In this document: positions 31,781 to 53,514 of the stretch, piece after piece | How positions within the stretch are numbered: position 1 is the stretch's first letter | How the letters are laid out: each line of letters starts with the position of its first letter | Assembly (NCBI GenBank): GCA_005223185.1 | Contig: NJBN01000001.1 | Coordinates: 62,001 to 126,000, forward strand | From: a candidate division LCP-89 bacterium B3_LCP | GTDB lineage: Bacteria; Electryoneota; B3-LCP | Direction of reading: 5' to 3' | DNA length: 64,000 nucleotides | Translations under genes and position numbers: made by a program | Notes under the pieces: generated by a model | Told to the model about the DNA's origin: nothing | The model's input: only the letters and a program-made list of their open reading frames with translations | Database searches by the model: none

Positions 31781-31820
31781 AAAAAGCGTCATTCTGGCTT
31801 GTCCAGAATCTGACGCTTTT
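31781..31820. repeat. Two-copy hairpin element, copy 1
   Basis: AAGCGTCA and TGACGCTT enclose a second stem TTCTGG/CCAGAA. The T-rich end also makes it a possible bidirectional terminator. The same sequence is found at 37514-37552, in both cases between convergent genes. Confidence 0.75.
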
Positions 31821-35560: not shown

Positions 35561-35589
35561 TTGACAATACCATTATTTTTTATTAAATT
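35561..35589 (+). promoter_or_regulatory. Promoter of the FG-GAP/T9SS gene
   Basis: TTGACA (35561-35566), 17-nt spacer, TAAATT (35584-35589). It lies 35 nt before the start codon, showing that the in-frame upstream codons are not translated. Confidence 0.65.
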
Positions 35590-35623
35590 GTTGTATGTAG
35601 AATTTAATGAACGGAGGTGCCTC

Positions 35624-37384
35624 ATGAAATGCTGCAAATTCTTAATTCCACTGTGTATATGCCTTTCTGTTGCAGGTATAAGTTTAGCGCAGATTCCCAC
35701 ATTCGAGGATGTTGCTCTTTCAGCGGGAGTGGCTGAAGACGATTTAGGTCTGGGCGCCGCGATGATCGACGTCAACAACGACGGATTCGATGACATCCAC
35801 TTAATAAATGACAGCCAGCCTGGAAACCGGGATTTCCTCTACCTCAACCAGGGTGATCTGACCTTCCTGGACATCACCTATTCCGCTCATGCCTGGATGC
35901 CGCCGTTCTCCAATACCGTGCGCATTTTCGATGTGGATAACGATGGCTGGCAGGATATGTTCGTTTCAACCTATAGCTCATCTGAGGGACACAGGATTTA
36001 CCGCAACAACGGCGATAACACATTCACCGACTGGTTCCCTCAGAGTGGGCTGCGCAATCATGCGCTAAGCACCGTTGACTTAGTGGATATAGATAACGAT
36101 GGCTGGGTGGACGTCTATTACGCTACGCACGACTGGTTTCCTTTTGGCGTGCTCTGGCGAGCCACCGGTCCCGGAACTTATACTTTTTCACGGCAGACGC
36201 CTGAGCAACTCTGGTATATCTGCGAAGCCGTGTTCTGCGATTTCGATAACGATGGTGATATGGACCTGTTTGAAGGGAACCTGTATGCCTATAATCTGCT
36301 CTATGAAAACAACTTTCCCAACTTCACTCAAATCGGAAGCTCAGCGGGTATTTCAGGAAGCCATAACGACTTTAAGTACCCCATAGTCGGAGATTACAAC
36401 AATGACGGGCTCTTCGATATATATTGCATATATTACACAGAATGGGGCAATTCTCCCGACTGCCTCTACCGCCAGGATACACCCATGCAGTTTATTGATA
36501 CTCTGCCAGCGACGGGGATTACCGTTATGGAGGAGACCTACTGCGGCTGTTGGGCTGACTTGGATAACGACGGCTGGCTGGATCTGCTGACCTTTGATGC
36601 TACCCTCAGTAACGCCCATTTCTGGCATAACCAGGGTGACGGCACTTTCGTTGACGTTACCCAGCAGGCGGGCTTAACTCAGTCCACTACCCAAGCTTTT
36701 GCTCCCGTAACAGGTGACGTCAACGCTGATGGATTCCTGGATTTTTACCTGGTCAGGTATGGCCCGGCTAACTGTCTCTACGTAAATAGCGGAAATGACA
36801 ATCACTGGTTGCAGGTAGCGCTTGAAGGTACCCAATCCAATCGTTTGGGAATCGGAGCGCGGGTGAAGGCGGTGTCCGGGGATTTGGTACAGTGGCGTGA
36901 TCCGGGTGGTGGGCGGTTTGCGGGAAGTTCCAACGCACCCTACGTTCACCTTGGTTTGGGTGATCACAGCGTGGTGGACAGCCTCTACGTCAACTGGCCC
37001 TCCGGGCAGGTGGATCTCTTGTTAGACGTTCCCGCTGACCAGCGCATAACTGTGGTGGAAGGGTCGTTTGATGTATCTTCAAAGGAGCTTGAAGCTACAG
37101 ATTTTGATCATGATCTCCAGGTTGCCGTAAACCCCAACCCGTTCAATCCGACCACAGTTCTAAAGTACAAGTTGCAAGATGCAAGTTTTGTAAACTTTAG
37201 AGTTTACGATATTTCCGGACATTTAGTTGCCGAGTTGGTGAACGGCTGGCGGGATGCGGGTGTGCATGAGGTGGTGTTTGATCCCACAGGGGCAGGTGCT
37301 TTGCATCTGGCGTCGGGAATTTACCTCTACCGATTGGAAGCCGATGTTTTCAGTGCCTGTGGTAAGATGGTATTGGTGAAGTAG
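35624..37384 (+). CDS. Secreted FG-GAP/VCBS repeat protein with ASPIC/UnbV domain and T9SS tail
   Basis: 586 residues from ATG 35624, preceded by GGAGGTG. Signal peptide with Cys pair (MKCCKFLIPLCICLSVAGIS); the mature part starts QIPTFEDVALSAGV, the usual opening of CRTAC-type proteins. Residues about 35-410 carry repeats with calcium-loop-like DxDNDGxxD (DVNNDGFDDIH, DVDNDGWQDMF, DIDNDGWVDVY, DFDNDGDMDLF), forming an integrin-like beta-propeller. The ASPIC/UnbV part is about 415-470 (WRDPGGGRFAGSS, HLGLGDHSVVDSLYVNWPSG). The sorting tail begins at NPNPFNPTTVLKYKLQ and ends SACGKMVLVK. A surface protein; ligand unknown. Confidence 0.87.
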   Translation: MKCCKFLIPLCICLSVAGISLAQIPTFEDVALSAGVAEDDLGLGAAMIDVNNDGFDDIHLINDSQPGNRDFLYLNQGDLTFLDITYSAHAWMPPFSNTVRIFDVDNDGWQDMFVSTYSSSEGHRIYRNNGDNTFTDWFPQSGLRNHALSTVDLVDIDNDGWVDVYYATHDWFPFGVLWRATGPGTYTFSRQTPEQLWYICEAVFCDFDNDGDMDLFEGNLYAYNLLYENNFPNFTQIGSSAGISGSHNDFKYPIVGDYNNDGLFDIYCIYYTEWGNSPDCLYRQDTPMQFIDTLPATGITVMEETYCGCWADLDNDGWLDLLTFDATLSNAHFWHNQGDGTFVDVTQQAGLTQSTTQAFAPVTGDVNADGFLDFYLVRYGPANCLYVNSGNDNHWLQVALEGTQSNRLGIGARVKAVSGDLVQWRDPGGGRFAGSSNAPYVHLGLGDHSVVDSLYVNWPSGQVDLLLDVPADQRITVVEGSFDVSSKELEATDFDHDLQVAVNPNPFNPTTVLKYKLQDASFVNFRVYDISGHLVAELVNGWRDAGVHEVVFDPTGAGALHLASGIYLYRLEADVFSACGKMVLVK

Positions 37385-37513: not shown

Positions 37514-37552
37514 AAAAAGCGTCATTCTGGCTTGTCCAGAATCTGACGCTTC
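37514..37552. repeat. Two-copy hairpin element, copy 2
   Basis: Same nested stems (AAGCGTCA/TGACGCTT and TTCTGG/CCAGAA) as at 31781. Lies between convergent T9SS genes and may end transcription on both strands. Confidence 0.75.
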
Positions 37553-40636: not shown

Positions 40637-41494
40637 TCAATCCACGATCTCCACCTCAATGCTGCCCAGACCGACTTCGGCGTCGATGGTGAGGCGGTGA
40701 GGGGCGCTGTCCCAGTTGCCGTTACGGTAGAGACCGTCGCGCACTTCTATGATAGAGCGATCCAGATCGACTTCTGAGAGGAAGTTACTCTGGCTGTAAA
40801 CTTCCACGCCTAAGTCTTCAGGAATTTTCACCGTGGCGCTGCCCAGACCGACTTCCAGGTTCAGTTCCGCTTCGTCCACTTTCCATTTGCCGTCCAGTTC
40901 CAGCGTTGCCGATCCCAGCCCGCATTCTAAGTTCAATTTCCCGAAATTAGCGTTACCCAGACCGATAGCGGTAAAATTACCCAGACCGATCTCCAGATTG
41001 ATTTCATCAAGGCGTTCCTGGTTGGGTTCATCGAAGGTCAGTTCGATGTTGGAGAGACCGCCAGCGATCTCCAGATCGGTGAGTTTTAAAGCGGTCATGT
41101 CCAGTTGACCTTCAACCAAGCCAATATCTATTTGCAGATTAAGCGGTATTTTTGTGGTAAAGAGCAGTTCCCAGCGTTCATCCTCGGTATTTAATTCACC
41201 GTCTTTATCACTACGCGATTCTATGATCAGGTAGCCGGTCTTGCCCGACTTGCGAAAGCTGATTTTGGGTTCATCGTAGTCGGTATCGTACCTAACGTTA
41301 GCTTCCAGCAGGTTATTCCCCTCGACCTGCCCGATGGTCAGCTCGGCGATCCCTATTTCGATCTCTATTTCCAGGTTTTCGAGGTCCTCGTAGGGGATGG
41401 TTTTCTGAAAGTTTTCGAAATCGCTTCTGGCAAATGTCAAAACGGGGAGAATGAGCAGCAAGCTGATAATTGTCAGCAATTTTCGTTTAAGCAT
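40637..41494 (-). CDS. Exported beta-strand repeat protein (LiaF/DUF4097 toast-rack like)
   Basis: 285 residues from ATG 41494 (AAAGGAA upstream); the open frame to 41542 would run into a repeat element. Signal peptide MLKRKLLTIISLLLILPVLTFA. The rest is built from strand repeats with alternating LxIExGLGxxxxxxxGxA, notably NLEIGLGNFTAIGLGNANFG and NLEVGLGSATVKIPEDLGVE, typical of the LiaF C-terminal / DUF4097 'toast-rack' fold. Last gene of the sigma-factor operon. Likely a periplasmic or envelope protein acting in the same stress response; mechanism unknown. Confidence 0.78.
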   Translation of the reverse strand: MLKRKLLTIISLLLILPVLTFARSDFENFQKTIPYEDLENLEIEIEIGIAELTIGQVEGNNLLEANVRYDTDYDEPKISFRKSGKTGYLIIESRSDKDGELNTEDERWELLFTTKIPLNLQIDIGLVEGQLDMTALKLTDLEIAGGLSNIELTFDEPNQERLDEINLEIGLGNFTAIGLGNANFGKLNLECGLGSATLELDGKWKVDEAELNLEVGLGSATVKIPEDLGVEVYSQSNFLSEVDLDRSIIEVRDGLYRNGNWDSAPHRLTIDAEVGLGSIEVEIVD

Positions 41495-41526
41495 GGTATT
41501 TCCTTTATTCAGTATAATGTGAATTC

Positions 41527-41593
41527 GAGATTGCTTCGTCATCCCGCCGTAGCGGGATTCCTCGTCCCGAAGGGACCCCTACGGGGCAATGAC
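41527..41593 (-). repeat. Dispersed palindromic repeat, copy 3 (inverted)
   Basis: Read on the minus strand it starts GTCATTGCCCCGTAGGGGTC and ends GACGAAGCAATCTC, joining features of copies 1 and 2. It sits between two operon genes. Confidence 0.75.
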
Positions 41594-41605: not shown

Positions 41606-42949
41606 TTAGTATCGCTCTTCGATGAAGATATCGCCATCCACGGTCTTAAGATAGATCAAGGGTCCACCACCGTTGACGTCACCTGTAGCGGTGATGCGTC
41701 TGTAGGAGCGATCCCAACGCTTGTCACCCTTCTTGCCGTTGTCTTCGGATATTTTCAACATGAACTCGCTGTGTATGTTGTAATCGGAATAATGGTCGGA
41801 GATCTCAATTTCCGCTTCGACGGTAGCTTTGACGTCCCTGGGAAGCTGCAAAGAGATCTTTCCGCCGCTGGTGGAAAGGCTGATCGGTTCTTTAAGCATA
41901 CCTTTGCCAGTGATGCGAGCTTGCACGTTTCCACCGGACGTCTTCCCCATGAGTCTCCCCATGACTTTGTCGAATTCGAGGCATCCACCGGCGGTTGACA
42001 CGTCCACATCTTCGCTGACGTCGTCTATTTCAATGTCTCCGCCGGAAGTTCTGCCGTAAACGCTACCCGCAATCAGCGTGGCTCGAACGTCGCCGCCGGA
42101 TGTGCGTAGATCTATGTCCCCGACGACGTTTTCTGCTTCAACGTCGCCTCCTGAAGTTTCCGCGGAATGCGATGATCCCTTCACTTCCCGCAAGGATATT
42201 TCACCGCCGGAAGTGGATAAGTCAAGGTCTCCAGTAACCTGAAAAGCTTCGACATCTCCTCCGGAAGTCCCGGCATCAACGTTGCCCTCGATCGATCTGA
42301 GGACGATATCACCACCTGCGGTTTTCAACTTGAAATGACCGCCTCGAGCGTCCCATAGCTCAACGTCGCCTCCTGCAGTTTCGGCTCTAACCTCACCGGC
42401 AACGCCCCTAACCTTGATTTCTCCGCCAGCAGTTTCCACATCCAGATCGCCAGTAACGTCGGAAACTTCCACGTCACCACCCATGGTTTCCAACACCGCC
42501 TGTCCTTCCAGAACTTCCAGGCGAATCTCGCCACCCATGGTTTCTACTTCCAGATTGAATTTGGTGGGCAGCTTAACGTGATAGGAAGAATGGACATATC
42601 GGCGTCGCTTCTGATTGCCGAATACTTCGATACCGTTGCCGGTCTGGGTAATGCGAGCACGGTAGCGCTGCAGTGCGGATTCGGCTTCCTTTTCGATATC
42701 GACGTCGAAGAAGAAGTCTTCGATTATCTCCACCTGATTTTTATTTCCACCTGAAATTGTTATGTCACCGATCAGGTTCTGCATATCCAGGTCGCCGCCC
42801 GGGGAAACCTCAAACTGCGTGGTTATGGTAGCGCTGTAACCACCATGTTCGGCTTTTATTTCGATTCTGGGATCGTCCTTTCCAACTGCAATGCCGGATA
42901 TCATAAGAAGGCTTAAAGCGGATATCCAGAGCCTCTTATTTGATTTCAT
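41606..42949 (-). CDS. Exported DUF4097-type beta-helix repeat protein
   Basis: 447 residues. Signal peptide (MKSNKRLWISALSLLMISGIAVG). Residues about 130-345 hold at least ten turns of about 20-22 residues with the conserved T(S/A/M)GG(D/E) corner, for example VETMGGEI, LETMGGDV, VETAGGEI, AETAGGDV, STSGGEIS and RTSGGDVRA: a single-stranded solenoid. The protein ends in FIEERY. It is common in FCB and Acidobacteria genomes next to ECF sigma/anti-sigma pairs, but the molecular role is unknown. 20 nt downstream of the anti-sigma gene. Confidence 0.85.
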   Translation of the reverse strand: MKSNKRLWISALSLLMISGIAVGKDDPRIEIKAEHGGYSATITTQFEVSPGGDLDMQNLIGDITISGGNKNQVEIIEDFFFDVDIEKEAESALQRYRARITQTGNGIEVFGNQKRRRYVHSSYHVKLPTKFNLEVETMGGEIRLEVLEGQAVLETMGGDVEVSDVTGDLDVETAGGEIKVRGVAGEVRAETAGGDVELWDARGGHFKLKTAGGDIVLRSIEGNVDAGTSGGDVEAFQVTGDLDLSTSGGEISLREVKGSSHSAETSGGDVEAENVVGDIDLRTSGGDVRATLIAGSVYGRTSGGDIEIDDVSEDVDVSTAGGCLEFDKVMGRLMGKTSGGNVQARITGKGMLKEPISLSTSGGKISLQLPRDVKATVEAEIEISDHYSDYNIHSEFMLKISEDNGKKGDKRWDRSYRRITATGDVNGGGPLIYLKTVDGDIFIEERY

Positions 42950-42969: not shown

Positions 42970-43971
42970 TTATTGGTGTAATTGGATTAATTTCATATTA
43001 AAATTGGATTGTTTGATTGCCTGCCGGGCTCTCATTTTCACGTATGCATTGGAATCTGCTTCTGCTGCCTGCAGGTAAATCGGCGTGGATTTAAAGCCAT
43101 TATCTCCTGCTAATAACATGTCAATAGCGCGAATGCGTATGGCGGGGTTGGAATCTTTAAGCAGCGCCTTAACGAAAGCCTGTTCGGTTATCTCATCCCG
43201 GGAGATTTCACTTAAGGCTTCCAAGGCTTTCAGGCGCACTCCATCATTACTGTCGTTAATCAGGGCGTACGTCAGAACTTCGCGAGCAACAGCGCTGACT
43301 TCGGAATTGCGAGCCAGTTCCTGTACTGAATTCAGGCGGGCACCTAAGTTGCTTTCGTTTTTGACTGCCCAGGTCAGAAGGACGTTGATCAAGTCATCAG
43401 AAGAGCTACCTTCGATCTGGTAGTCCTGAGTAGCGCGGAAATTGACCTGCAGGAGTCCGCTTTCGGGTGCTAGTGAAGCGACTCGCACATCCTGTATCTG
43501 GCTGCCTCCGTTTACAATATTTTCGGTAATGAAGTGCCTTTCTAAAGCAGCAGAATTCACCGGTGCAACCAAAGGCATACCAGCAGAAGTATCGGGCGAG
43601 GAGACCAGAACATACCTGCCGATGATCAGACCTAACAGGAGACTTCCCAGCACCAGAGCAGGCTGTGTTAACGGTTGCGGGAAAGGCGTGAACCATTCCC
43701 TGATGCGATCCCTGATGTTCCAGGCAGAACGGCTGCCTTCGTCAGCTCTCAATCTCACCACCAAGTGTTCTCTTGCGGACTTAAGCATTTCCGGCTCAGG
43801 TTGGGCTGGAACGCGAGCTGTTAAGAGAGCCTGAAAGTGGTCAAGTTCTCGCTGGCGTGCCTGGCAGTTGGGGCAGCTTTCCAGGTGTTCCTGAAAGGCA
43901 TCTTCTCCGATTGAGATTGGTTCGCCGTAGACTTTCTGCCAGTAGTAGCCATCGAAGTCTTTGCAATTCAT
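42970..43971 (-). CDS. Anti-sigma factor with zinc-finger and HEAT repeats
   Basis: 333 residues. N-terminal zinc-binding anti-sigma domain: Cys3 and the HLESCPNCQARQRELDHF motif (His-x3-Cys-x2-Cys, about 30-37). One membrane helix (LVLGSLLLGLIIGRYVLVS, about 106-124). The extracytoplasmic part (about 200-325) comprises HEAT-like repeats (GARLNSVQELARNSEVSAVA, GVRLKALEALSEISRDEITE, AIRIRAIDMLLAGDNGF). The HEAT module presumably senses an envelope signal and releases the sigma factor. It overlaps the sigma gene by 4 nt (ATGA). Confidence 0.85.
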   Translation of the reverse strand: MNCKDFDGYYWQKVYGEPISIGEDAFQEHLESCPNCQARQRELDHFQALLTARVPAQPEPEMLKSAREHLVVRLRADEGSRSAWNIRDRIREWFTPFPQPLTQPALVLGSLLLGLIIGRYVLVSSPDTSAGMPLVAPVNSAALERHFITENIVNGGSQIQDVRVASLAPESGLLQVNFRATQDYQIEGSSSDDLINVLLTWAVKNESNLGARLNSVQELARNSEVSAVAREVLTYALINDSNDGVRLKALEALSEISRDEITEQAFVKALLKDSNPAIRIRAIDMLLAGDNGFKSTPIYLQAAEADSNAYVKMRARQAIKQSNFNMKLIQLHQ

Positions 43972-44564
43972 GATATTATATCTGTAGTTTGGCTTTCTGT
44001 ACGATAGTACGGTTCCAGAATTACTCTCAGCTTTGCTAACGCTCGGAACAGGTAGGCTTTAACGGCTCCTTCACTGATCTTCAGAACGCTTGCTATCTCC
44101 TTCAATTTCATGCCTTGATCGTGTTTCATGACGAAGACGGTACGCTGTCTTAAGGGCAGTTCGTCCAGTGCTCTATCGATCTGTTCCAGCACCTCCCGCC
44201 GCAATTGTAAGTTTTCAGGATTGTCTTCGGGGTTGGCTGGCGCTGATGCGAAGAAGTCGTCGCTGTTGTCCATGAGCTGTTCTCTCTTTTGTCTGCGGCT
44301 CAAGCTCCTCTTATGACTGATTGCCACGTTTACGGCAATACGGTGCAGCCAGGTGGAAAATTGCGATTCAAAGCGGAAGGAACCTAAAGAACGGTGCACC
44401 TTCAGGAAGATCTCCTGGTAAACTTCATCGGCGTCGAAGCCTCTGCCCAATACGGACCAGACCAGGGACATTATCCTGCTGTCGTGCATGGCAACCAGTT
44501 GGGAGAAGGCGTTATCGTCTCCGTTTCTGGCGTTTATAATTAGCTGGTGTTCTTCCTCATTCAT
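43968..44564 (-). CDS. ECF-type RNA polymerase sigma factor
   Basis: 198 residues. Region 2 at about 20-90 (DADEVYQEIFLKVHRSLGSF, FSTWLHRIAVNVAISHKR) and region 4 at about 130-185 (LPLRQRTVFVMKHDQGMKLK, EIASVLKISEGAVKAYLFRA). Regions 1.1 and 3 are absent, as expected. First gene of a four-gene operon with its anti-sigma factor and two exported beta-strand proteins; probably autoregulated. A -35/-10 pair for this family was not identified upstream. Confidence 0.93.
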   Translation of the reverse strand: MNEEEHQLIINARNGDDNAFSQLVAMHDSRIMSLVWSVLGRGFDADEVYQEIFLKVHRSLGSFRFESQFSTWLHRIAVNVAISHKRSLSRRQKREQLMDNSDDFFASAPANPEDNPENLQLRREVLEQIDRALDELPLRQRTVFVMKHDQGMKLKEIASVLKISEGAVKAYLFRALAKLRVILEPYYRTESQTTDIIS

Positions 44565-44741: not shown

Positions 44742-47117
44742 ATGCGTATATTGATTGGTGTCTCTTTGATTTTGTGCTTCATTGTTATACCCGCTTCAGG
44801 TCAGGAATCCTGGATTCTTCTGGAGGAGTACACTTCACCAGGGAATTACGCTATGGGCTTATATTATGCAGGAAAATATCTCTGGCATGTCGACTGGGAT
44901 ACGTCGTCGAATGATGCCACGATTTACAAATTGAATCCATATAATATGGCGGTGATAGACAGTATACCGTCACCGATTGAACATCCCTGGGGGATAACCG
45001 CTGATGCCAACAGTTTCTGGTTAACGACCCACGGCGACTGGGGGGGTTCACCGGTAAGCACATTAGCAAAAATACGTACCGATACATTCATGGTTAGTGC
45101 TATTTACTCCTTTCCAGACTTTTATTTTTACGGTATAACCTGTGACAGTACAACTAACCATCTCTGGATTGCCTGCCAGACCTCAAGCTGGGATCACTAT
45201 CTAATGGAGTTCAATCCTGATTCTGGTGAAGTGGTGGAATGGCATCCCTGGGAATCGGAATGGGACATAGGTATTCAGTATTGGGGTGGAGAGCTCTGGG
45301 TCAATACAACCGATTATTTTTACCCTGATTACACCTACGTCGCAGATATAGACAGTAGCCTAGCCATTACTAATACTCTGCGCGTTCCCTATGCAAATCC
45401 ATGCGGAATCGCTACCAATGGAGTGATCTGGTGGATCGCCTACTACCGTTTTGACAACTTTATAATCTGTAAGCTCATTCCTCCCGGCACGACCTATCAC
45501 GACATAGCGGCTCATTCGCCCGTAATTCCCCAGTCAGGCATACTTGAGATAGCCTCATTCGAGCCGCAATTCCGTTTCATCAACTACGGATCGGTGCCGG
45601 AAATCGATGTTCCCTTCGTGTGTGAGATCGAGAATGACTCAACAGGAGCTGTTATATATCATGGTGAAGATATCTACGGAGATGAAATCGCACCGGAGGA
45701 GATAGTCACGATCACATATCCTACAGTCAGTGGTTTATTGCTGGAACCGGAAACCGATTATACCTTCACATTTTACAGCGATCTTTTAACGGATCAGATC
45801 CGCGATAATGACACTATGCGCGTTCACGTGTGTACTGAAGGAGTTCATGATCTAGCTATATTGTCCGTTATTGATCCGGATACTACAGAGCCTCAGGCGA
45901 CCATTATACCTTCAATAAGTGTGCAGAACCAGGGTTCACATTTCGAGCCTGTCGCTCCTGTGCATTTACAGATTGAGCATCCAGATGGCAGCTTAAGTGA
46001 TTTTGATTCTCAGGTTCTGGATTTAGATCCGCTAGAGATTGATACAATTTACTTCAGCCCGTTTGATCCTACTGAGTCGGGAGAGTACGTTTTTGAATTC
46101 GATGGTATGCTTCCTGACGATTATAATCCAGAAAATGATTACATGATGATGATGTGTGCTATCGGCTTAGTACATGATGTGGCTCCCGCTGAAGTTGTAA
46201 GCCCGGAAGCATTCGAGCCCTTGCAACCAATTACACCTCGTGTGATCGTGGAAAATTTGGGGGATTATGATGAGCCTCTGTTTCCGGTCTCCTGCACGGT
46301 TGAAGATTCTGTTTCAACGGTTTATTCAGAGCAGGGCTACTGCCAGCCCCTGGAGCCCGGTGAACAATGGGAAGTAGTGTTTTATAATTTTTATCCTCAG
46401 TATCCAACCAATTATATCTTCAATTTCACCACACTGCTAACCGGTGATCAAGTGCCAGAGAATGATACACTATCTATTACTTCCGCAGTGGGATTAATCT
46501 ATGACGTTGCCCCTATTGACGTGATTGAACCAACGCAAATTATAGGTCCTGAACCGTTTACCCCATCGGTCATGGTAAAAAACGAAGGAAATGTATTTGC
46601 GGATGGTTTTTTTATCCACTGCCAGGTGGACAGTGAATCCGTCTCACTTTATAATATGCAAACCTGGCTTCCTGCGCTTAATCCCAACGAAACCGATACT
46701 GCATTTTTCGATATGATAACCTTGTCTAATTTGGGTGAGTACCGTTTTCTATTCATTTCAGATTGGCAACTGGATAATTATCCGGAAAATGACACGCTTG
46801 AGTTCTGGCCTGAGTATCTATCGGTAATCGATGGAAAAGACGCCTTGCATATATCAGATTTCCACGTCGAAGGCGCTTTTCCCAATCCTTTCAACTCACA
46901 GACTGTATTTGAAATAAGCTTACCAGAAGTCGCATCGATAGATGTTTCGCTATTTGACCTGAGCGGGTGTTGTGTTCATCAGATGAACTTTGATCCTTTA
47001 ACACCGGGTGTGCATCGCATCGAACTCAAAGTTTCTAACCTTCCCAGCGGAATGTACATAGCGCGAGTTTCTACAGAGAAGTGGGAGGAATCGATCAAGG
47101 TAGTCTTACTGAAATGA
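44742..47117 (+). CDS. Large secreted T9SS cargo protein, copy A
   Basis: 791 residues. Signal peptide MRILIGVSLILCFIVIPASG. Residues about 20-270 form a propeller-like domain with Trp-rich repeats (LWHVDWD, FWLTTHGDW, LWIACQTSSWD, LWVNTTDYFY). Three or four Ig-like CARDB-type modules follow (about 375-700, each starting with a segment like VHDVAPAEVVSP), then the sorting tail AFPNPFNSQTVFEISLPEVA ending in ESIKVVLLK. AAGGAGA precedes the ATG. From 46018 onward the DNA is nearly identical to copy B. Binding partner unknown. Confidence 0.85.
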   Translation: MRILIGVSLILCFIVIPASGQESWILLEEYTSPGNYAMGLYYAGKYLWHVDWDTSSNDATIYKLNPYNMAVIDSIPSPIEHPWGITADANSFWLTTHGDWGGSPVSTLAKIRTDTFMVSAIYSFPDFYFYGITCDSTTNHLWIACQTSSWDHYLMEFNPDSGEVVEWHPWESEWDIGIQYWGGELWVNTTDYFYPDYTYVADIDSSLAITNTLRVPYANPCGIATNGVIWWIAYYRFDNFIICKLIPPGTTYHDIAAHSPVIPQSGILEIASFEPQFRFINYGSVPEIDVPFVCEIENDSTGAVIYHGEDIYGDEIAPEEIVTITYPTVSGLLLEPETDYTFTFYSDLLTDQIRDNDTMRVHVCTEGVHDLAILSVIDPDTTEPQATIIPSISVQNQGSHFEPVAPVHLQIEHPDGSLSDFDSQVLDLDPLEIDTIYFSPFDPTESGEYVFEFDGMLPDDYNPENDYMMMMCAIGLVHDVAPAEVVSPEAFEPLQPITPRVIVENLGDYDEPLFPVSCTVEDSVSTVYSEQGYCQPLEPGEQWEVVFYNFYPQYPTNYIFNFTTLLTGDQVPENDTLSITSAVGLIYDVAPIDVIEPTQIIGPEPFTPSVMVKNEGNVFADGFFIHCQVDSESVSLYNMQTWLPALNPNETDTAFFDMITLSNLGEYRFLFISDWQLDNYPENDTLEFWPEYLSVIDGKDALHISDFHVEGAFPNPFNSQTVFEISLPEVASIDVSLFDLSGCCVHQMNFDPLTPGVHRIELKVSNLPSGMYIARVSTEKWEESIKVVLLK

Positions 47118-47131
47118 GGAATCAATTGCCT
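46018..47131 (+). repeat. 1.1-kb near-identical duplication, unit A
   Basis: Matches 48464-49577 at a constant offset of 2446 nt without gaps. I found only a handful of substitutions, all in the first ~150 nt, and identity in the rest. Covers the Ig-like modules, the T9SS tail and the first 18 nt of the following glycosyltransferase ORF. Confidence 0.85.
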
Positions 47132-47233
47132 GTTGATATATATATTCCATGCTATCAACCAGATGAATATCTGGACAGATGTATTCAATCTGTTTTGAAG
47201 TATACGAAGGGAGATATATCATGCGTAGTGTAA
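47114..47233 (+). pseudogene. 5' stub of a family 2 glycosyltransferase gene
   Basis: An ORF of 39 codons that starts on the stop of copy A (ATGA overlap), exactly as the full glycosyltransferase gene starts on the stop of copy B. It reads MRNQLPVDIYIPCYQPDEYL, then DRCIQSVLKYTKGD, a normal GT2 N-terminus, and runs into the ribosome binding site and start of the copy B gene, ending at a TAA inside it. The rest of the enzyme is missing. Confidence 0.65.
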
Positions 47234-49563
47234 TTGCTATCTCTTTGATTCTAAGTTTTTCTACTCCGATTGCACTAAGCCAGGAATCCTGGGTCATGCT
47301 CACGGAATACCCTTCACCTGGCGATGGTGCTAGAGGTCTTTACTATGCAGGGAAACTCCTCTGGAATGTCGATCATGAAGCTCAGACGGTATTTACCCTA
47401 AATCCTTATAACTTAGAAGTAATAGACATATATCCATCTCCCATAGATGATCCATGGGGCATCACTGTTGCCAATAACCGTTTTTGGATGACGAATTTTA
47501 GCAATAGTGTGAGTCAATTGGTTAAGTTGCGACCTGATACATTTGCAGTGGCGGCAACATTCGATTTCCCAGGATATTATTTTTACGGACTCACATGTGA
47601 CAGCACAAATCAGCATATGTGGATCTCAGCGATGGATCATTCTTATACAAAATATTTACTTGAATTTGATGCGATTACTGAGGAGGTAATCCAATGGCAT
47701 AGTTGGCCCTATATATGGAATCTTGGCATGCAGTATTGGGATCGTTGTCTGTGGGTGAATTCATCCGATTGGAATTATCCTGATTATACATATATTTTTG
47801 CCCTCGACTCGATGAATGTTGAAGAAATGCTTACTTGTCCGCTGGCCGTTCCAGAAGGGATTGCCACTAATGGAGTGGTCTGGTGGATTTCCCATTTCAG
47901 AGATAATGCTCCCTATATTTGGAAACTTATCCCACCCGGAGCTGAAGTACATGATATCGCTGGATATCAACAGGTATTTCCCAATACGGGAATTCTTGAA
48001 CAGCTGGAATTTGAGCCTCAGAGTCGGTTTATTAATTACGGATCTGTTTCAGAAACTGACGTCCCGTTTGTCTGCAGGATATGGGAAGATACTACAGCGC
48101 CAGTCATTTACTATGATAGTTTGATCTACAATGGTACAATTGCACCGGAAGAAATAGTGGATATCACCTTTGATACAGCTTATTTTGAACCGAATAGAGA
48201 TTATACTTTAAAACTTTATAGCAGCCTTCCCTGGGATCAACACCGAAACAATGATACCTTAAGGGTTTATGTACACACTGTTGGCGGAATCCACGATTTA
48301 GCCATATTATCAATACTCGAACCAGAAGAATCAGAACCTCTTGAACTTATTATTCCCACTATAGAAGTACAAAATCAGGGTGATTACTTTGAGGCTACTG
48401 CACCCGTTCATCTAGAAATTGTACACCCTGACAGCACAATCAGTGAATATGATAGTCAAGTTTTGGATTTAGATCCGCTAGAGATTGATACAATTTACTT
48501 CAGCCCGTTTGATCCTACTGAGTCGGGAGAGTACGTTTTTGAATTCGATGGAATGCTTCCTGACGATTATAATCCAGGAAATGATTACATAGTGATGATG
48601 TGTGCAATCGGCTTAGTACATGATGTGGCTCCCGCTGAAGTTGTAAGCCCGGAAGCATTCGAGCCCTTGCAACCAATTACACCTCGTGTGATCGTGGAAA
48701 ATTTGGGGGATTATGATGAGCCTCTGTTTCCGGTCTCCTGCACGGTTGAAGATTCTGTTTCAACGGTTTATTCAGAGCAGGGCTACTGCCAGCCCCTGGA
48801 GCCCGGTGAACAATGGGAAGTAGTGTTTTATAATTTTTATCCTCAGTATCCAACCAATTATATCTTCAATTTCACCACACTGCTAACCGGTGATCAAGTG
48901 CCAGAGAATGATACACTATCTATTACTTCCGCAGTGGGATTAATCTATGACGTTGCCCCTATTGACGTGATTGAACCAACGCAAATTATAGGTCCTGAAC
49001 CGTTTACCCCATCGGTCATGGTAAAAAACGAAGGAAATGTATTTGCGGATGGTTTTTTTATCCACTGCCAGGTGGACAGTGAATCCGTCTCACTTTATAA
49101 TATGCAAACCTGGCTTCCTGCGCTTAATCCCAACGAAACCGATACTGCATTTTTCGATATGATAACCTTGTCTAATTTGGGTGAGTACCGTTTTCTATTC
49201 ATTTCAGATTGGCAACTGGATAATTATCCGGAAAATGACACGCTTGAGTTCTGGCCTGAGTATCTATCGGTAATCGATGGAAAAGACGCCTTGCATATAT
49301 CAGATTTCCACGTCGAAGGCGCTTTTCCCAATCCTTTCAACTCACAGACTGTATTTGAAATAAGCTTACCAGAAGTCGCATCGATAGATGTTTCGCTATT
49401 TGACCTGAGCGGGTGTTGTGTTCATCAGATGAACTTTGATCCTTTAACACCGGGTGTGCATCGCATCGAACTCAAAGTTTCTAACCTTCCCAGCGGAATG
49501 TACATAGCGCGAGTTTCTACAGAGAAGTGGGAGGAATCGATCAAGGTAGTCTTACTGAAATGA
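47221..49563 (+). CDS. Large secreted T9SS cargo protein, copy B
   Basis: 780 residues from ATG 47221, with AAGGGAGA upstream; the in-frame ATG at 47179 would add residues from the glycosyltransferase stub. Signal peptide MRSVIAISLILSFSTPIALS. Same order of parts as copy A: Trp-rich propeller-like domain (LWNVDHE, FWMTNFS, MWISAMDHS, LWVNSSDWNYP), CARDB-like Ig modules and the identical tail. The N-terminal 420 residues are clearly diverged from copy A, the C-terminal 365 are almost the same. A role in ligand binding at the cell surface would be set by the variable N-terminus. Confidence 0.85.
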   Translation: MRSVIAISLILSFSTPIALSQESWVMLTEYPSPGDGARGLYYAGKLLWNVDHEAQTVFTLNPYNLEVIDIYPSPIDDPWGITVANNRFWMTNFSNSVSQLVKLRPDTFAVAATFDFPGYYFYGLTCDSTNQHMWISAMDHSYTKYLLEFDAITEEVIQWHSWPYIWNLGMQYWDRCLWVNSSDWNYPDYTYIFALDSMNVEEMLTCPLAVPEGIATNGVVWWISHFRDNAPYIWKLIPPGAEVHDIAGYQQVFPNTGILEQLEFEPQSRFINYGSVSETDVPFVCRIWEDTTAPVIYYDSLIYNGTIAPEEIVDITFDTAYFEPNRDYTLKLYSSLPWDQHRNNDTLRVYVHTVGGIHDLAILSILEPEESEPLELIIPTIEVQNQGDYFEATAPVHLEIVHPDSTISEYDSQVLDLDPLEIDTIYFSPFDPTESGEYVFEFDGMLPDDYNPGNDYIVMMCAIGLVHDVAPAEVVSPEAFEPLQPITPRVIVENLGDYDEPLFPVSCTVEDSVSTVYSEQGYCQPLEPGEQWEVVFYNFYPQYPTNYIFNFTTLLTGDQVPENDTLSITSAVGLIYDVAPIDVIEPTQIIGPEPFTPSVMVKNEGNVFADGFFIHCQVDSESVSLYNMQTWLPALNPNETDTAFFDMITLSNLGEYRFLFISDWQLDNYPENDTLEFWPEYLSVIDGKDALHISDFHVEGAFPNPFNSQTVFEISLPEVASIDVSLFDLSGCCVHQMNFDPLTPGVHRIELKVSNLPSGMYIARVSTEKWEESIKVVLLK

Positions 49564-49577
49564 GGAATCAATTGCCT
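48464..49577 (+). repeat. 1.1-kb near-identical duplication, unit B
   Basis: Partner of 46018-47131. Divergence resumes abruptly at 49578, 18 nt into the glycosyltransferase gene. Confidence 0.85.
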
Positions 49578-50222
49578 TCTGTTGACATCTATATTCCCAG
49601 CAGAGAGAAGGATGACTTTTACCGCTCTGCAGAAAATTCCATCAGGGAGAATACTAGATCACAATTTAATCTAATTGAGAGTATCGGTCAACGATCGATA
49701 GCGGGAAACCGTAATGCTGGATTACGAATGTCAAGTTCTGAATTTGTGGCTTCACTAGATTCGGACTGTGAACTTGTCCAGGGTGATTGGCTGGAGAATA
49801 TGATGGAAATTCTCCTGTCTGAGGATGATATCGGGCTGGTTGGTTGTAAGATTGTTATGTTTGACGGCAAGATATTTTCTGCTGGTACCGCTCCGAACTG
49901 GAGATCATATTGTTACGGTGAAGTTGATGAAGGACAGCGCGAGATAGTCGAAGATGTCGTGGGGGTATCAGCAAACTGTCTGCTTTATCGGAGAGGATTA
50001 TTAGAGTACGATGAGAGATTTGTTGGAGGTAATGGGCTCGAAGATTCTGACTTCTGTATTCGTTTGCGGAAAAAAGGATATAGAGTCTTCTATGACGGAA
50101 GAGTGAAGGTGGTACATAAGAAATATCCCAAAGAGAAAAATCCTCTTTTCTGGAATCACCTTTATTTTCATTTAAAACATCCCACAACTATTTTAGCTCA
50201 ATACAGGAAGGTAAGAGCTTAA
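49560..50222 (+). CDS. Family 2 glycosyltransferase
   Basis: 220 residues from ATG 49560, overlapping the stop of copy B (ATGA). GT-A features: IYIPSREKDDF at the start, AGNRNAGLRMSSSEFVASLDSDCELV with the DxD-like DSD (metal and UDP-sugar binding), GLVGCKIVMFDG, and GNGLEDSDFCIRLRKKGYRVF, the acceptor-side ED motif. The N-terminus before the IAGNRNAGL segment is shorter than usual, without the normal TYN start, and the enzyme is small; this suggests a rearranged but still functional enzyme. Linked in translation to a T9SS cargo, it may glycosylate surface proteins. Confidence 0.82.
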   Translation: MRNQLPSVDIYIPSREKDDFYRSAENSIRENTRSQFNLIESIGQRSIAGNRNAGLRMSSSEFVASLDSDCELVQGDWLENMMEILLSEDDIGLVGCKIVMFDGKIFSAGTAPNWRSYCYGEVDEGQREIVEDVVGVSANCLLYRRGLLEYDERFVGGNGLEDSDFCIRLRKKGYRVFYDGRVKVVHKKYPKEKNPLFWNHLYFHLKHPTTILAQYRKVRA

Positions 50223-50241: not shown

Positions 50242-51831
50242 ATGAAAAGGGTATTTTTCTTGAGTATTATACTGCTGCTTTACGCATCGTCACCACAAGC
50301 AATAACCATTTACGTACCTGATGATTACGCTACCATAGGTGATGCCATTCTGGCGGCATCAGATGGTGATTCGATTCTCGTGGGACCTGGCGAATACGAT
50401 CAAGTTCCATTTACAATAACAGGTCCAGACAACATAACCCTACTGGGAAATGGTTATACTGGAACAGATAGAACAGTTGTTATCGGCTACGGTATTGTTC
50501 CAGGGGCAAAATTTGAATTACTTAGTGTAGAGAATTGGGAAATAGGTCACTTTGAGTTGATGTCAAGCAATAAAGGTGTAACTCCAAGCGAGTGTGTAGA
50601 CTGCTATTTTCACGATCTCTATATTCACGATTTTAGCTGGTCGTATGCAGATGGTTTCGGAGTGAGTGATAATTCGGGGATATTGATAGAGCGGTGTGTG
50701 ATCGATGGAGCTCCTTTCGGTGGAATATATCTCTGGGTTACGGGCAATACCGGAATTACAATCAGGAATAATACAATAGTGAACTGTGCAAATGGTACTT
50801 TAGTAGGAGCTCCGGTACCCGATTTAGTGCTGGAAAACAATATAATCGCTTTTAATGGCGATGGTGTCGAATTCTTAAATTATTCTTGGACTGGTGGTGA
50901 ATTCCTCGATTACAATGACATGTTTAATCCCGGCAACAACTGGTCTGGTTGCACACCGGGACCTAATAACATATCCGCGGATCCCATGTTTATCGGTGGA
51001 ACGGAAGCCGAACAGTATATGCTCCTGCCCAATTCCCCTTGCATAGACGCGGGCAACCCGGCGTCACCTCCGGACCCGGATGGAACGGTTGCGGATATCG
51101 GCTGTTTCTACTTCGACCAGAACTTCGTCATGGGTAACCTGACCGTGTATGCCGAACCGGTCGAACCTCCGGTAGTAATTCCTCCGGAGGGCGGGACATT
51201 CGATTACACGGCATCAATAACCTGTGATACTACGAATTACGCTTTCTTCGACGCCTGGGTGGAATTCACGCTGCCTAACAGTGTAGTAGTAGGCCCAAAA
51301 TTCATGCGTTCTGACAACCTGCTGGCGCCGGGAGATTCGGTCGGCAGGGATTTAAGTCTGCACGTATCAGCGTTCGCCATGTCGGGAACCTATGAGTTGA
51401 CACTACTCACAGGCATGTATCCTGATACCATTTATGTTTCTGATTCGTTCACCTTTGAGAAGTCAGGTGTCGATGCTCTGTCTGGCGGGAATGAACCTGC
51501 TTACGCCGTGCTGTCGGGGTGGGACGAATCTGAGTACATAGAACTCCCTGTCAACAGCGTTAGCGTTGCGCAGGATATCAGCTTGGGATCACATCCCAAT
51601 CCCTTTAATCCACATACGTCTTTAAGCTTCACACTACCTGCTTCCGGCCGCACGTCGCTGAAGATATTCGATCTTGCAGGCAGGACGGTTGCTACGCTGC
51701 TGGATCGAGAGATGCAAGCAGGGTCACACAGTATGCAGTTCGATGGAAATCAATTAGCTTCGGGAGTGTATCTGGCCGTGATAGAAGTGGGGAATATGCG
51801 GGCAGTGGAACGGTTACTCTTACTCAAATGA
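50242..51831 (+). CDS. Secreted parallel beta-helix protein with T9SS tail, copy A
   Basis: 529 residues. Signal peptide MKRVFFLSIILLLYASSPQA. Mature start ITIYVPDDYATIGDAILAAS is the known opening of pectate-lyase-like beta-helix proteins; residues about 40-280 hold short parallel strands (ITIRNNTIVNCANG, LVLENNIIAFNGDG). Ig-like domain about 305-430, sorting tail from SHPNPFNPHTSLSFTLPASG to AVERLLLLK. GGAGG 8 nt before ATG. From 51154 to 51722 its DNA nearly equals that of the next gene. Polysaccharide binding or cleavage is possible, but no catalytic set is recognised. Confidence 0.85.
   Translation: MKRVFFLSIILLLYASSPQAITIYVPDDYATIGDAILAASDGDSILVGPGEYDQVPFTITGPDNITLLGNGYTGTDRTVVIGYGIVPGAKFELLSVENWEIGHFELMSSNKGVTPSECVDCYFHDLYIHDFSWSYADGFGVSDNSGILIERCVIDGAPFGGIYLWVTGNTGITIRNNTIVNCANGTLVGAPVPDLVLENNIIAFNGDGVEFLNYSWTGGEFLDYNDMFNPGNNWSGCTPGPNNISADPMFIGGTEAEQYMLLPNSPCIDAGNPASPPDPDGTVADIGCFYFDQNFVMGNLTVYAEPVEPPVVIPPEGGTFDYTASITCDTTNYAFFDAWVEFTLPNSVVVGPKFMRSDNLLAPGDSVGRDLSLHVSAFAMSGTYELTLLTGMYPDTIYVSDSFTFEKSGVDALSGGNEPAYAVLSGWDESEYIELPVNSVSVAQDISLGSHPNPFNPHTSLSFTLPASGRTSLKIFDLAGRTVATLLDREMQAGSHSMQFDGNQLASGVYLAVIEVGNMRAVERLLLLK
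51154..51722 (+). repeat. 0.57-kb near-identical tail segment, unit A
   Basis: Matches 52837-53405 (offset 1683 nt) with only a few silent or single substitutions. Encodes the Ig-like domain and most of the sorting tail. Confidence 0.85.
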
Positions 51832-51903
51832 TAGAAGTAAGTACACTACAAACCATGAAGATCAAATAACCAAAAAAAATATCAATTCTAATTGGAGGCT
51901 AAA

Positions 51904-53514
51904 ATGAATTGTAAACTGATTCTTGTGGTAACACTCATGGCGGTTTGCCTGACAGCAAACGCAGTTACACTCTACGTACCTGATGATTACAGCACAATAC
52001 AAGCCGCCATCGATGCAACAGTTGACGGTGATTCAGTTGTAATCGATCCAGGTGAATGGGAAGGATTTTACGTTGTAGGTGGCGCAAATGATCTCACCAT
52101 CTTAGGTTCCGGGGCTTTTACTGATGATCCGACAATTGTTCATGAATGCACACTGAACCCTATCGGCAGCGCAGTTTGGATTGAAAAAGTATCCGGCTGG
52201 GAATTAGCAGATTTCGCCGTTGACCAGGATAATCCCGCCAGTGCTTCTGGATTCGAACTCTGGGATACGCAGGATTTCTGGGTGCATCACATAGACGTGA
52301 TTGAAGTTGCCCACCCCGGCAGCCATGGGATCATCCTTGATGGAACGGACAATACACTCGTGGAAAAGTGCCTGGTTAGAGGCGCCAACTATGATGTGGT
52401 AACCTGCTGGTACGGCGGTAATTCCAATGTAACGTTCAGGAACCTGACAATTTCCGCCAACGGAAACGGCATAATTAATCGCGCCACGGTGAATAATTGG
52501 GAGATAAGCAACTGCCTGGTTTACGATTGCGGAGATACGGGTGTGGAGATCCATTACTGGTCTTCCAGTTATGATATCCAGTACAATAATTCCTGGGGAA
52601 ATTCTGGATCAGAGTACCAGGGATTCAGCCCAGACACGACGAATATTTCTGAGGATCCAGATCTCCTCAGCAGTGTGGGCGTAACCGGCTGGGAAGGATT
52701 CATGTTGCTGCTGAGCTCGCCATGCATTGATGCTGGCGATCCGGGATTACCTTTGGACCCAGATGGCACAATTTCTGATATAGGCTGTTTTTACTACGAT
52801 CAGAATAATCCCATGGGCAGCTTAACGGTAACCGTAGAACCGGTCGAACCTCCGGTAGTAATTCCTCCGGAGGGCGGGACATTCGATTACACGGCATCAA
52901 TAACCTGTGATACTACGAATTACGCTTTCTTCGACGCCTGGGTGGAATTCACGCTGCCTAACAGTGTAGTAGTAGGCCCAAAATTCATGCGTTCTGACAA
53001 CCTGCTGGCGCCGGGAGATTCGGTCGGCAGGGATTTAAGTCTGCACGTATCAGCGTTCGCCATGTCGGGAACCTATGAGTTGACACTACTCACAGGCATG
53101 TATCCTGATACCATTTATGTTTCTGATTCGTTCACCTTTGAGAAGTCAGGTGTCGATGCTCTGTCTGGCGGGAATGAACCTGCTTACGCCGTGCTGTCGG
53201 GCTGGGACGAATCTGAGTACATAGAACTCCCTGTCAACAGCGTTAGCGTTGCGCAGGATATCAGCTTGGGATCACATCCCAATCCGTTTAATCCACACAC
53301 GTCTTTAAGCTTCACACTACCTGCTTCCGGCCGCACGTCGCTGAAGATATTCGATCTTGCAGGCAGGACGGTTGCTACGCTGCTGGATCGAGAGATGCAA
53401 GCAGGATCGCACAGTGTGCAGTTCGATGGCAGCCAGTTGGCTTCAGGGGTGTATCTGGCGGTGCTTAATAATTCAAAAAGCACTGCTGTCCAGAGAATCC
53501 TGCTGATGAAGTGA
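51904..53514 (+). CDS. Secreted parallel beta-helix protein with T9SS tail, copy B
   Basis: 536 residues from ATG 51904 (TTGGAGG at 51892 is the ribosome binding site and not the start). Signal peptide MNCKLILVVTLMAVCLTANA; mature VTLYVPDDYSTIQAAIDATV again opens a pectate-lyase-like beta-helix (DNTLVEKCLVRGANYDVV, NVTFRNLTISANGNG). The C-terminal Ig module and sorting tail are shared with the preceding gene; the last 36 residues differ slightly (NSKSTAVQRILLMK). Adjacent tandem copies with separate N-terminal domains point to tail exchange. Ends with a strong terminator. Confidence 0.85.
   Translation: MNCKLILVVTLMAVCLTANAVTLYVPDDYSTIQAAIDATVDGDSVVIDPGEWEGFYVVGGANDLTILGSGAFTDDPTIVHECTLNPIGSAVWIEKVSGWELADFAVDQDNPASASGFELWDTQDFWVHHIDVIEVAHPGSHGIILDGTDNTLVEKCLVRGANYDVVTCWYGGNSNVTFRNLTISANGNGIINRATVNNWEISNCLVYDCGDTGVEIHYWSSSYDIQYNNSWGNSGSEYQGFSPDTTNISEDPDLLSSVGVTGWEGFMLLLSSPCIDAGDPGLPLDPDGTISDIGCFYYDQNNPMGSLTVTVEPVEPPVVIPPEGGTFDYTASITCDTTNYAFFDAWVEFTLPNSVVVGPKFMRSDNLLAPGDSVGRDLSLHVSAFAMSGTYELTLLTGMYPDTIYVSDSFTFEKSGVDALSGGNEPAYAVLSGWDESEYIELPVNSVSVAQDISLGSHPNPFNPHTSLSFTLPASGRTSLKIFDLAGRTVATLLDREMQAGSHSVQFDGSQLASGVYLAVLNNSKSTAVQRILLMK
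52837..53405 (+). repeat. 0.57-kb near-identical tail segment, unit B
   Basis: Partner of 51154-51722. The sharp loss of identity on both sides marks the recombination or conversion tract. Confidence 0.85.

Follow-up and report, generated by a model that had tools for sequence, protein, structure and literature searches.

Interior gene conversion as the probable origin of a near-identical tract in two adjacent T9SS genes of a candidate division LCP-89 bacterium, and recurrent sharing of sorting tails between neighbouring genes in its phylum

How can two adjacent genes for surface proteins be almost identical in their 3' parts and strongly diverged in their 5' parts? This question is raised by genes A and B of the candidate division LCP-89 bacterium B3_LCP (Table 1), which lie in the 64,000-nucleotide stretch of DNA that was analysed here as a whole (the window). 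An earlier note on this DNA had described a gap-free and nearly identical duplication of 1.1 kb, and the base-by-base alignment that it had proposed confirmed the exact borders given in Table 1: at a spacing of 2446 the two copies run side by side for 1114 nt with no gap and five differences. These differences, at 46106, 46132, 46145, 46146 and 46160 of copy A, are indeed clustered towards the 5' end, as had been noticed, and give rise to three amino-acid changes (E/G, M/I and M/V) and two silent ones. They are preceded by 88 identical bases that open the tract, and the final 971 nt contain no difference at all, although this zero count could have been smoothed by assembly; two nested events or patchy copying may be behind the clustering. 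In the 50-nt blocks immediately upstream of the tract about 20 of 50 bases differ, and immediately on its 3' side the copies diverge at once. The claimed divergence of the N-terminal parts also held, with 55% residue identity upstream of the tract and agreement at 34 of 93 fourfold sites there, which means saturation, versus 40 of 40 in the tail. Aligned by codons (2337 nt with 519 differences), A and B have 954 nt as their longest identical run, while the longest in 2000 shuffles of the aligned sites was 54 nt. Silent sites are therefore homogenised inside the tract and not in its flanks, as expected of gene conversion. No third copy of the tract was found in the 3.79-Mb, 18-contig assembly. 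The tract had been taken for the C-terminal half of the two proteins, and it does cover the 3' part of both genes, but it runs 14 nt beyond the stop codon, into the first codons of a glycosyltransferase gene that overlaps this stop; six shared codons of that gene belong to the tract. Its 5' border lies in the middle of the second Ig-like domain and not at a domain border.

Table 1. Features of the A/B locus and of the adjoining gene pair (positions in the window)
Feature	Position	Strand	Evidence or remark
ECF-type sigma factor gene	43968..44564	-	Pfam Sigma70_r2 and r4 over cut-off; divergent upstream neighbour of the unit
Gene A, 791 aa	44742..47117	+	CARDB and Por_Secre_tail over cut-off
A/B tract, copy in A	46018..47131	+	Base comparison, codon alignment
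Class-I glycosyltransferase 5' remnant, 39 codons	47114..47233	+	Overlaps stop of A (ATGA), ends inside start of B
Gene B: propeller head of class II, stalk and tail as in A	47221..49563	+	
A/B tract, copy in B	48464..49577	+	Base comparison
Class-II glycosyltransferase (family 2)	49560..50222	+	Glycos_transf_2 over cut-off; start overlaps stop of B
Gene C, beta-helix T9SS protein	50242..51831	+	Head like that of an orthologue, 50-52% identical to the lone gene in G004 and in G005
Second tract, copy in C	51154..51722	+	Ends 36 codons before stop
Gene D, beta-helix T9SS protein	51892..53514	+	31% identity to the head of C
Second tract, copy in D	52837..53405	+	Base comparison

The designation of A and B as T9SS proteins proved well founded. 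The T9SS type A sorting domain (TIGR04183, curated cut-off 23 bits) scores 33.9 bits in A, 34.5 in B, 29.0 in C and 34.8 in D, and the own genome has a match to the SprA family (TIGR04189) of 349.7 bits against a cut-off of 200, or 819.3 bits with the neighbouring matches in frame; a SprA-family translocon protein was found in all six genomes (the own genome and five relatives). Judged by sequence, the four proteins are predicted T9SS type A cargo. Gene A encodes a signal peptide (recognised by eye), a class-I beta-propeller head, four Ig-like CARDB-type domains and the sorting domain. The open reading frame of B is listed from 47179, and its likely start is the ATG at 47221, which is preceded by the ribosome-binding-like GGGAGATATATC. 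The AlphaFold model of A (mean pLDDT 78.7, pTM 0.39, from only six sequences) reads as an all-beta protein in which a propeller head is followed by four Ig-like domains, then a weak linker and finally a C-terminal sandwich, the domains being named by eye. Foldseek with the whole 770-residue model returned only long Ig-chain proteins with TM-scores of at most 0.24, and is therefore uninformative on the head; the sequence profile gave no match against solved structures at E 0.01 and none against PHROGs. A propeller head of this kind might bind something.

The short frame between A and B bears on the origin of the tract. Its ATG overlaps the stop codon of A, and after the first six codons it resembles the start of a class-I glycosyltransferase: among the 28 residues of its core, 21 match G005, 19 G004, 13 G003, 10 G001 and 9 the own class-II enzyme. 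The class-I enzyme is whole in two other genera (G004 and G005), and no intact one was found in the own genome, where the class-II query matched one place only at E 1e-15; the same query reaches about 1e-74 with the class-I enzymes of G004 and G005. Since the remnant is present and an intact enzyme was not found, the ancestral order would have been A, class-I glycosyltransferase, B, class-II glycosyltransferase, and the remnant dates the first unit back to the separation of class-I and class-II glycosyltransferases. Moreover, the tract is bounded on both sides by class-I sequence in A and by class-II sequence in B, which requires copying in the interior. The class-I genes of G004 and G005 begin differently from the six codons in the tract, which weakly suggests that B was the donor and A the recipient. 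A limit of homology as the cause of the 3' border was ruled out once the remnant had been recognised. By eye, the last codons of the remnant look fused to the ribosome-binding region of B via the shared word GGAGATAT, and a micro-homology deletion at this word is the likely cause of the truncation.

The comparison with sister strains that the earlier note had in mind was run at the level of genera: the own genus comprises one genome, family, order and class together comprise six genomes in six genera, and all of them are draft assemblies. A protein query with gene A over the contigs of the relatives gave no match, and an alignment query found four. Four of the five relatives (G001, G003, G004 and G005) carry one gene copy each in the same neighbourhood, with a head of either class I or class II; in G002 no head was found, and presence or absence cannot be told there because its glycosyltransferase match begins at a contig edge. 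A glycosyltransferase follows the gene in all four, the ECF sigma gene adjoins the unit in G001, G003 and G005 and not in G004, and a beta-helix T9SS gene comes next in G003, G004 and G005, the contig of G001 ending before that point. The own class-II glycosyltransferase is 75% identical to that of G003, 70% to that of G001 and 52% to that of G005. In public records the labels of the four relatives disagree (Zixiibacteriota, Calditrichaeota, bacterium and candidate division LCP-89). Upstream of the locus, the window has two secreted-looking repeat proteins (40637-41542 and 41606-42949) downstream of sigma and anti-sigma genes; both adjoin such genes in G003, and the former does so in G005 as well.

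Trees were compared for the parts of the unit (bootstrap values from FastTree, 100 replicates). In the rpoB tree G001 and G005 are sisters (100/100) and the own genome groups with G002 and G003 (100/100). The propeller heads are in conflict with this tree, separating B, G003 and G001 from A, G004 and G005 (99/100), and the glycosyltransferases track the head class (G004 with G005, 100/100). The sigma factor and the first two CARDB domains (CARDB1-2) lean to the species order, with G001 and G005 together at 84 and 83, respectively, and A with B at 77 in the latter. The tails of A and B group together (100/100), closer to each other than to any orthologue, which is not so for the heads. Among preset topologies, the propeller rejects the species-like tree (dlnL 125) and the tail rejects the head tree (dlnL 94, AU 0.0018), the latter largely because the tails of A and B are identical, and the CARDB1-2 segment rejects neither (AU 0.148). 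Without A, stalk plus tail of G001 prefers G005, not significantly (AU of the rival 0.09), and CARDB4 alone and the sorting domain alone lean away from G001 with G005. The AU test rejected neither G003 nor G005 as partner of G001 in CARDB1, CARDB1-2, CARDB2, CARDB3, CARDB4, the sorting domain or the whole stalk plus tail; placing the tail of G001 fails because the tail segments of the relatives are too diverged.

Directly next to A and B lies a second pair of the same kind, which the earlier note had overlooked. Genes C and D share a tract of 569 nt with three differences, all silent, and are diverged on either side of it, with 67% residue identity beyond its 3' end. Thus, both pairs combine a near-identical tract with sharp borders and diverged homologous flanks on both sides.

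Tail sharing between neighbours is also seen in a sample of the own genome made up of 20 T9SS-rich stretches and the window (355,492 bases, 95 T9SS genes); the stretches in this and three further genomes were picked for clustered T9SS genes, and the shuffles stay within the picked genes. Tails at least 78% identical occur in 19 of 4465 pairs, 15 of which are on the same strand within 5 kb, three on the same strand at 5-20 kb and one elsewhere. For the 111 same-strand pairs within 5 kb, the mean tail identity is 60.8% versus 53.7% after shuffling, and the agreement at fourfold sites is 47.9% versus 34.4%, each reached in 0/2000 shuffles, and the result is still 0/2000 without the four window genes (n = 105). 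Among them, 68 same-strand pairs without recognisably homologous heads have 41.2% versus 34.4% at fourfold sites (0/2000), their mean tail identity being reached in 6/2000 shuffles. The excess is small at 5-20 kb on the same strand (n = 100; mean reached in 94/2000, fourfold in 9/2000), and none was found in tail identity for 13 opposite-strand pairs within 5 kb, the opposite-strand comparisons being small throughout (13, 12 and 2 pairs). As a side observation within the window, the T9SS proteins at 10431-12731 and 35561-37384 have unrelated-looking heads and, by eye, very similar sorting tails (LQDASFVN...VAELVNGWRDAGVHEV). The own genome (3.8 Mb) has at least 150 places with a T9SS-type tail, which would amount to a large exported set.

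The step in identity was followed in 21 own-genome pairs with tails at least 76% identical on the same strand within 14 kb, a set that was chosen by tail and in which pairs share genes. Identity mostly falls about 80 codons from the end. Heads are comparable in 17 of the 21 pairs, and the tail exceeds the head at fourfold sites (p < 0.05) in 15 of these 17; the two others are C/D (Fisher test, p 0.53), where significance is missed because the tract lies partly upstream of the tail cut, and C4_238240/C4_240166 (p 0.40). In unselected same-strand pairs with homologous heads (40 usable of 43) the tail has 56.4% versus 42.5% for the head and is higher in 29/40, and without the window genes the values are 54.2% versus 37.6% and 27/38. 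Part of this contrast is not conversion, since distant pairs with homologous heads also show it: controls from other contigs (121 usable of 150 sampled) have 35.2% in the tail versus 27.7% in the head at fourfold sites. Opposite-strand pairs with homologous heads (4 usable of 7) have 33.3% versus 32.5%.

Same-strand neighbours have tails that resemble each other more than by chance in each of the four genomes, and the step in identity is usually at the sorting domain. For G004, from another genus, the sample had 63 genes on 219,994 bases; its 50 same-strand pairs have 62.4% versus 53.6% shuffled (0/1000), and 12 opposite-strand pairs have no excess. Five different-contig pairs of G004 also reach 78% tail identity, and whole-gene relatives thus occur as well, because those listed stay alike well above the tail. 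Two genomes from other families gave similar results: in G019 (29 genes) 23 same-strand pairs have 66.2% versus 50.4% (0/1000; fourfold 0/1000), and in G028 (23 genes) 17 same-strand pairs have 60.6% versus 50.8% (0/1000; fourfold reached in 5/1000). One neighbour pair of G028 has identical tails and another is at 97%, and two different-contig pairs reach 79%. Some similar pairs in G004 (C2) and G019 (C4, C11) are alike upstream of the tail too and may be ordinary duplicates.

A separate feature of the window is a 38-nt intergenic repeat at 31781-31818 and 37514-37551, which folds into a strong hairpin (z -6.7 at -19.3 kcal/mol). Two more places among the examined stretches of the own genome have the core TTCTGGCTTGTCCAGAA of this repeat (C18 in L104, and C16 in L088, the same C16 place being covered by L020); the outer stem at C18 has another sequence and still pairs. 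It may represent a family of intergenic hairpins or terminators.

Considering these results, we hold it very probable that interior gene conversion between A and B is the most recent and most extreme instance of a local homogenisation of T9SS tails that recurs in this phylum, and the sharp borders, the class-specific flanks and the 954-nt identical run make gene conversion, one of the origins proposed earlier, the best explanation of the tract. Two old tandem units, each made up of a propeller protein and an overlapping glycosyltransferase, would have stood side by side (A with the class-I enzyme, B with the class-II enzyme), the class-I enzyme later being lost except for its first codons. Non-crossover homologous recombination between direct repeats would then have carried some 1.1 kb of stalk and sorting tail over from one gene to the other, probably from B to A, while the heads and right-hand flanks of the two genes stayed as they were. 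The earlier proposal that the tail is preserved and the head swapped finds no support in this form, as the heads stayed put and the recent event overwrote the tail between old units; that the exchange serves surface variation is conceivable. In the same manner, the sorting-tail DNA of same-strand neighbours would be homogenised repeatedly while the heads diverge. Conversion of the RecA type would be a fitting agent, because the tails of neighbours are direct repeats and are homogenised without loss of heads. Unequal crossover between tandem tails could also be limited to direct repeats, and the missing opposite-strand signal, from few pairs, could hint at it; the flanks of A and B are those of a non-crossover outcome. 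Selection at the protein level alone cannot account for the agreement at silent sites. A possible benefit may be that tails are kept fit for one export machine, or that tandem genes are kept able to recombine.

An unlikely alternative is replacement of heads or capture of tails: one crossover, perhaps with incoming DNA, would have joined a new head to an existing tail, and tails would be alike because they had been duplicated as such. In its favour, four of the 21 tail-similar neighbour pairs lack comparable heads and the head class disagrees with the species tree, but interior copying is needed both for A, with class-I sequence on either side of the tract, and for C/D, where the tract stops before the stop codon with diverged homologous sequence beyond. 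It is less probable still that reads from two diverged tails were merged in assembly or polishing. The assembly is a draft of 18 contigs, and all five A/B differences are found 89-143 nt from the unique 5' flank, where a short read anchored in that flank could still cover them. However, each copy has unique left and right junctions, the outer gene order is that of the relatives, one of the C/D differences is over 200 nt away from both tract edges, and merging cannot account for neighbouring tails that are 80-97% identical in four separate assemblies. If the whole gene had been duplicated in tandem recently and the heads had then diverged rapidly under diversifying selection, A and B should be adjacent, co-directional and homologous throughout, as they are, but we give this reading hardly any credence, as the fourfold sites of the heads are saturated, the head classes are common to other genera, and the remnant gives the first unit the age of the glycosyltransferase class split. 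A misassembled pair of alleles, with head I from one strain and head II from another, was rejected as the main reading, since the junction of A tail, glycosyltransferase remnant and B start would be in neither allele and the right-hand flanks are separate.

In pilin or vls antigenic variation, gene conversion takes place between paralogous genes for surface proteins. Gene conversion between A and B would resemble these systems in acting on paralogues for surface proteins, and differ from them in that the constant part is copied; silent donor cassettes were not found, there being two full-length frames only and the tract occurring nowhere else in the genome. In Porphyromonas gingivalis, according to the accessible part of the report, identical repeats occur within and between rgpA, kgp and hagA, and domain rearrangement and allelic exchange have been proposed as a source of diversity (PMC5266723). 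The gingipains and the haemagglutinin are likewise multi-domain surface proteins exported by the T9SS that share sequence between genes. There, as far as that text goes, it is adhesin domains of three large genes that are shared, and variation was compared among strains (PMC5266723), whereas here the sharing extends over stalk and sorting tail, or is confined to the latter, and is seen between neighbours, at many loci, in one genome per genus. Prokaryotic paralogues under long-lasting concerted evolution such as tuf, as described in the accessible part of another study, are closer to each other than to orthologues, silent sites included, which is attributed to gene conversion (PMC6053082). Paralogues of the same genome are likewise more alike than orthologues here, but the search in that study was for homogenisation along the full gene, and in our case one end is homogenised and the other diverged. 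No report on local homogenisation of sorting tails was among the matches listed from the open-licence literature, where the P. gingivalis work, in its accessible part, comes closest; PMC5808330 has no bearing on the question.

In T9SS-rich genomes like these, one type of export tail is common to well over 100 surface proteins. Should neighbouring tails evolve together and the heads diverge, phylogenies of T9SS proteins would be mosaics, tail similarity would be no proof of recent duplication, and short-read assemblies would be prone to break or blur at the tails. It is doubtful, though conceivable, that the sorting tail acts as a handle for recombination at the DNA level, where the tails of same-strand neighbours, continually re-homogenised and so kept able to recombine, let whole export-ready heads be exchanged, duplicated or lost between tandem genes and lineages with no damage to export, the head classes found across genera being a product of this. 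Co-evolving tails would in any case offer a possible route by which surface heads may be renewed with the export signal still working.
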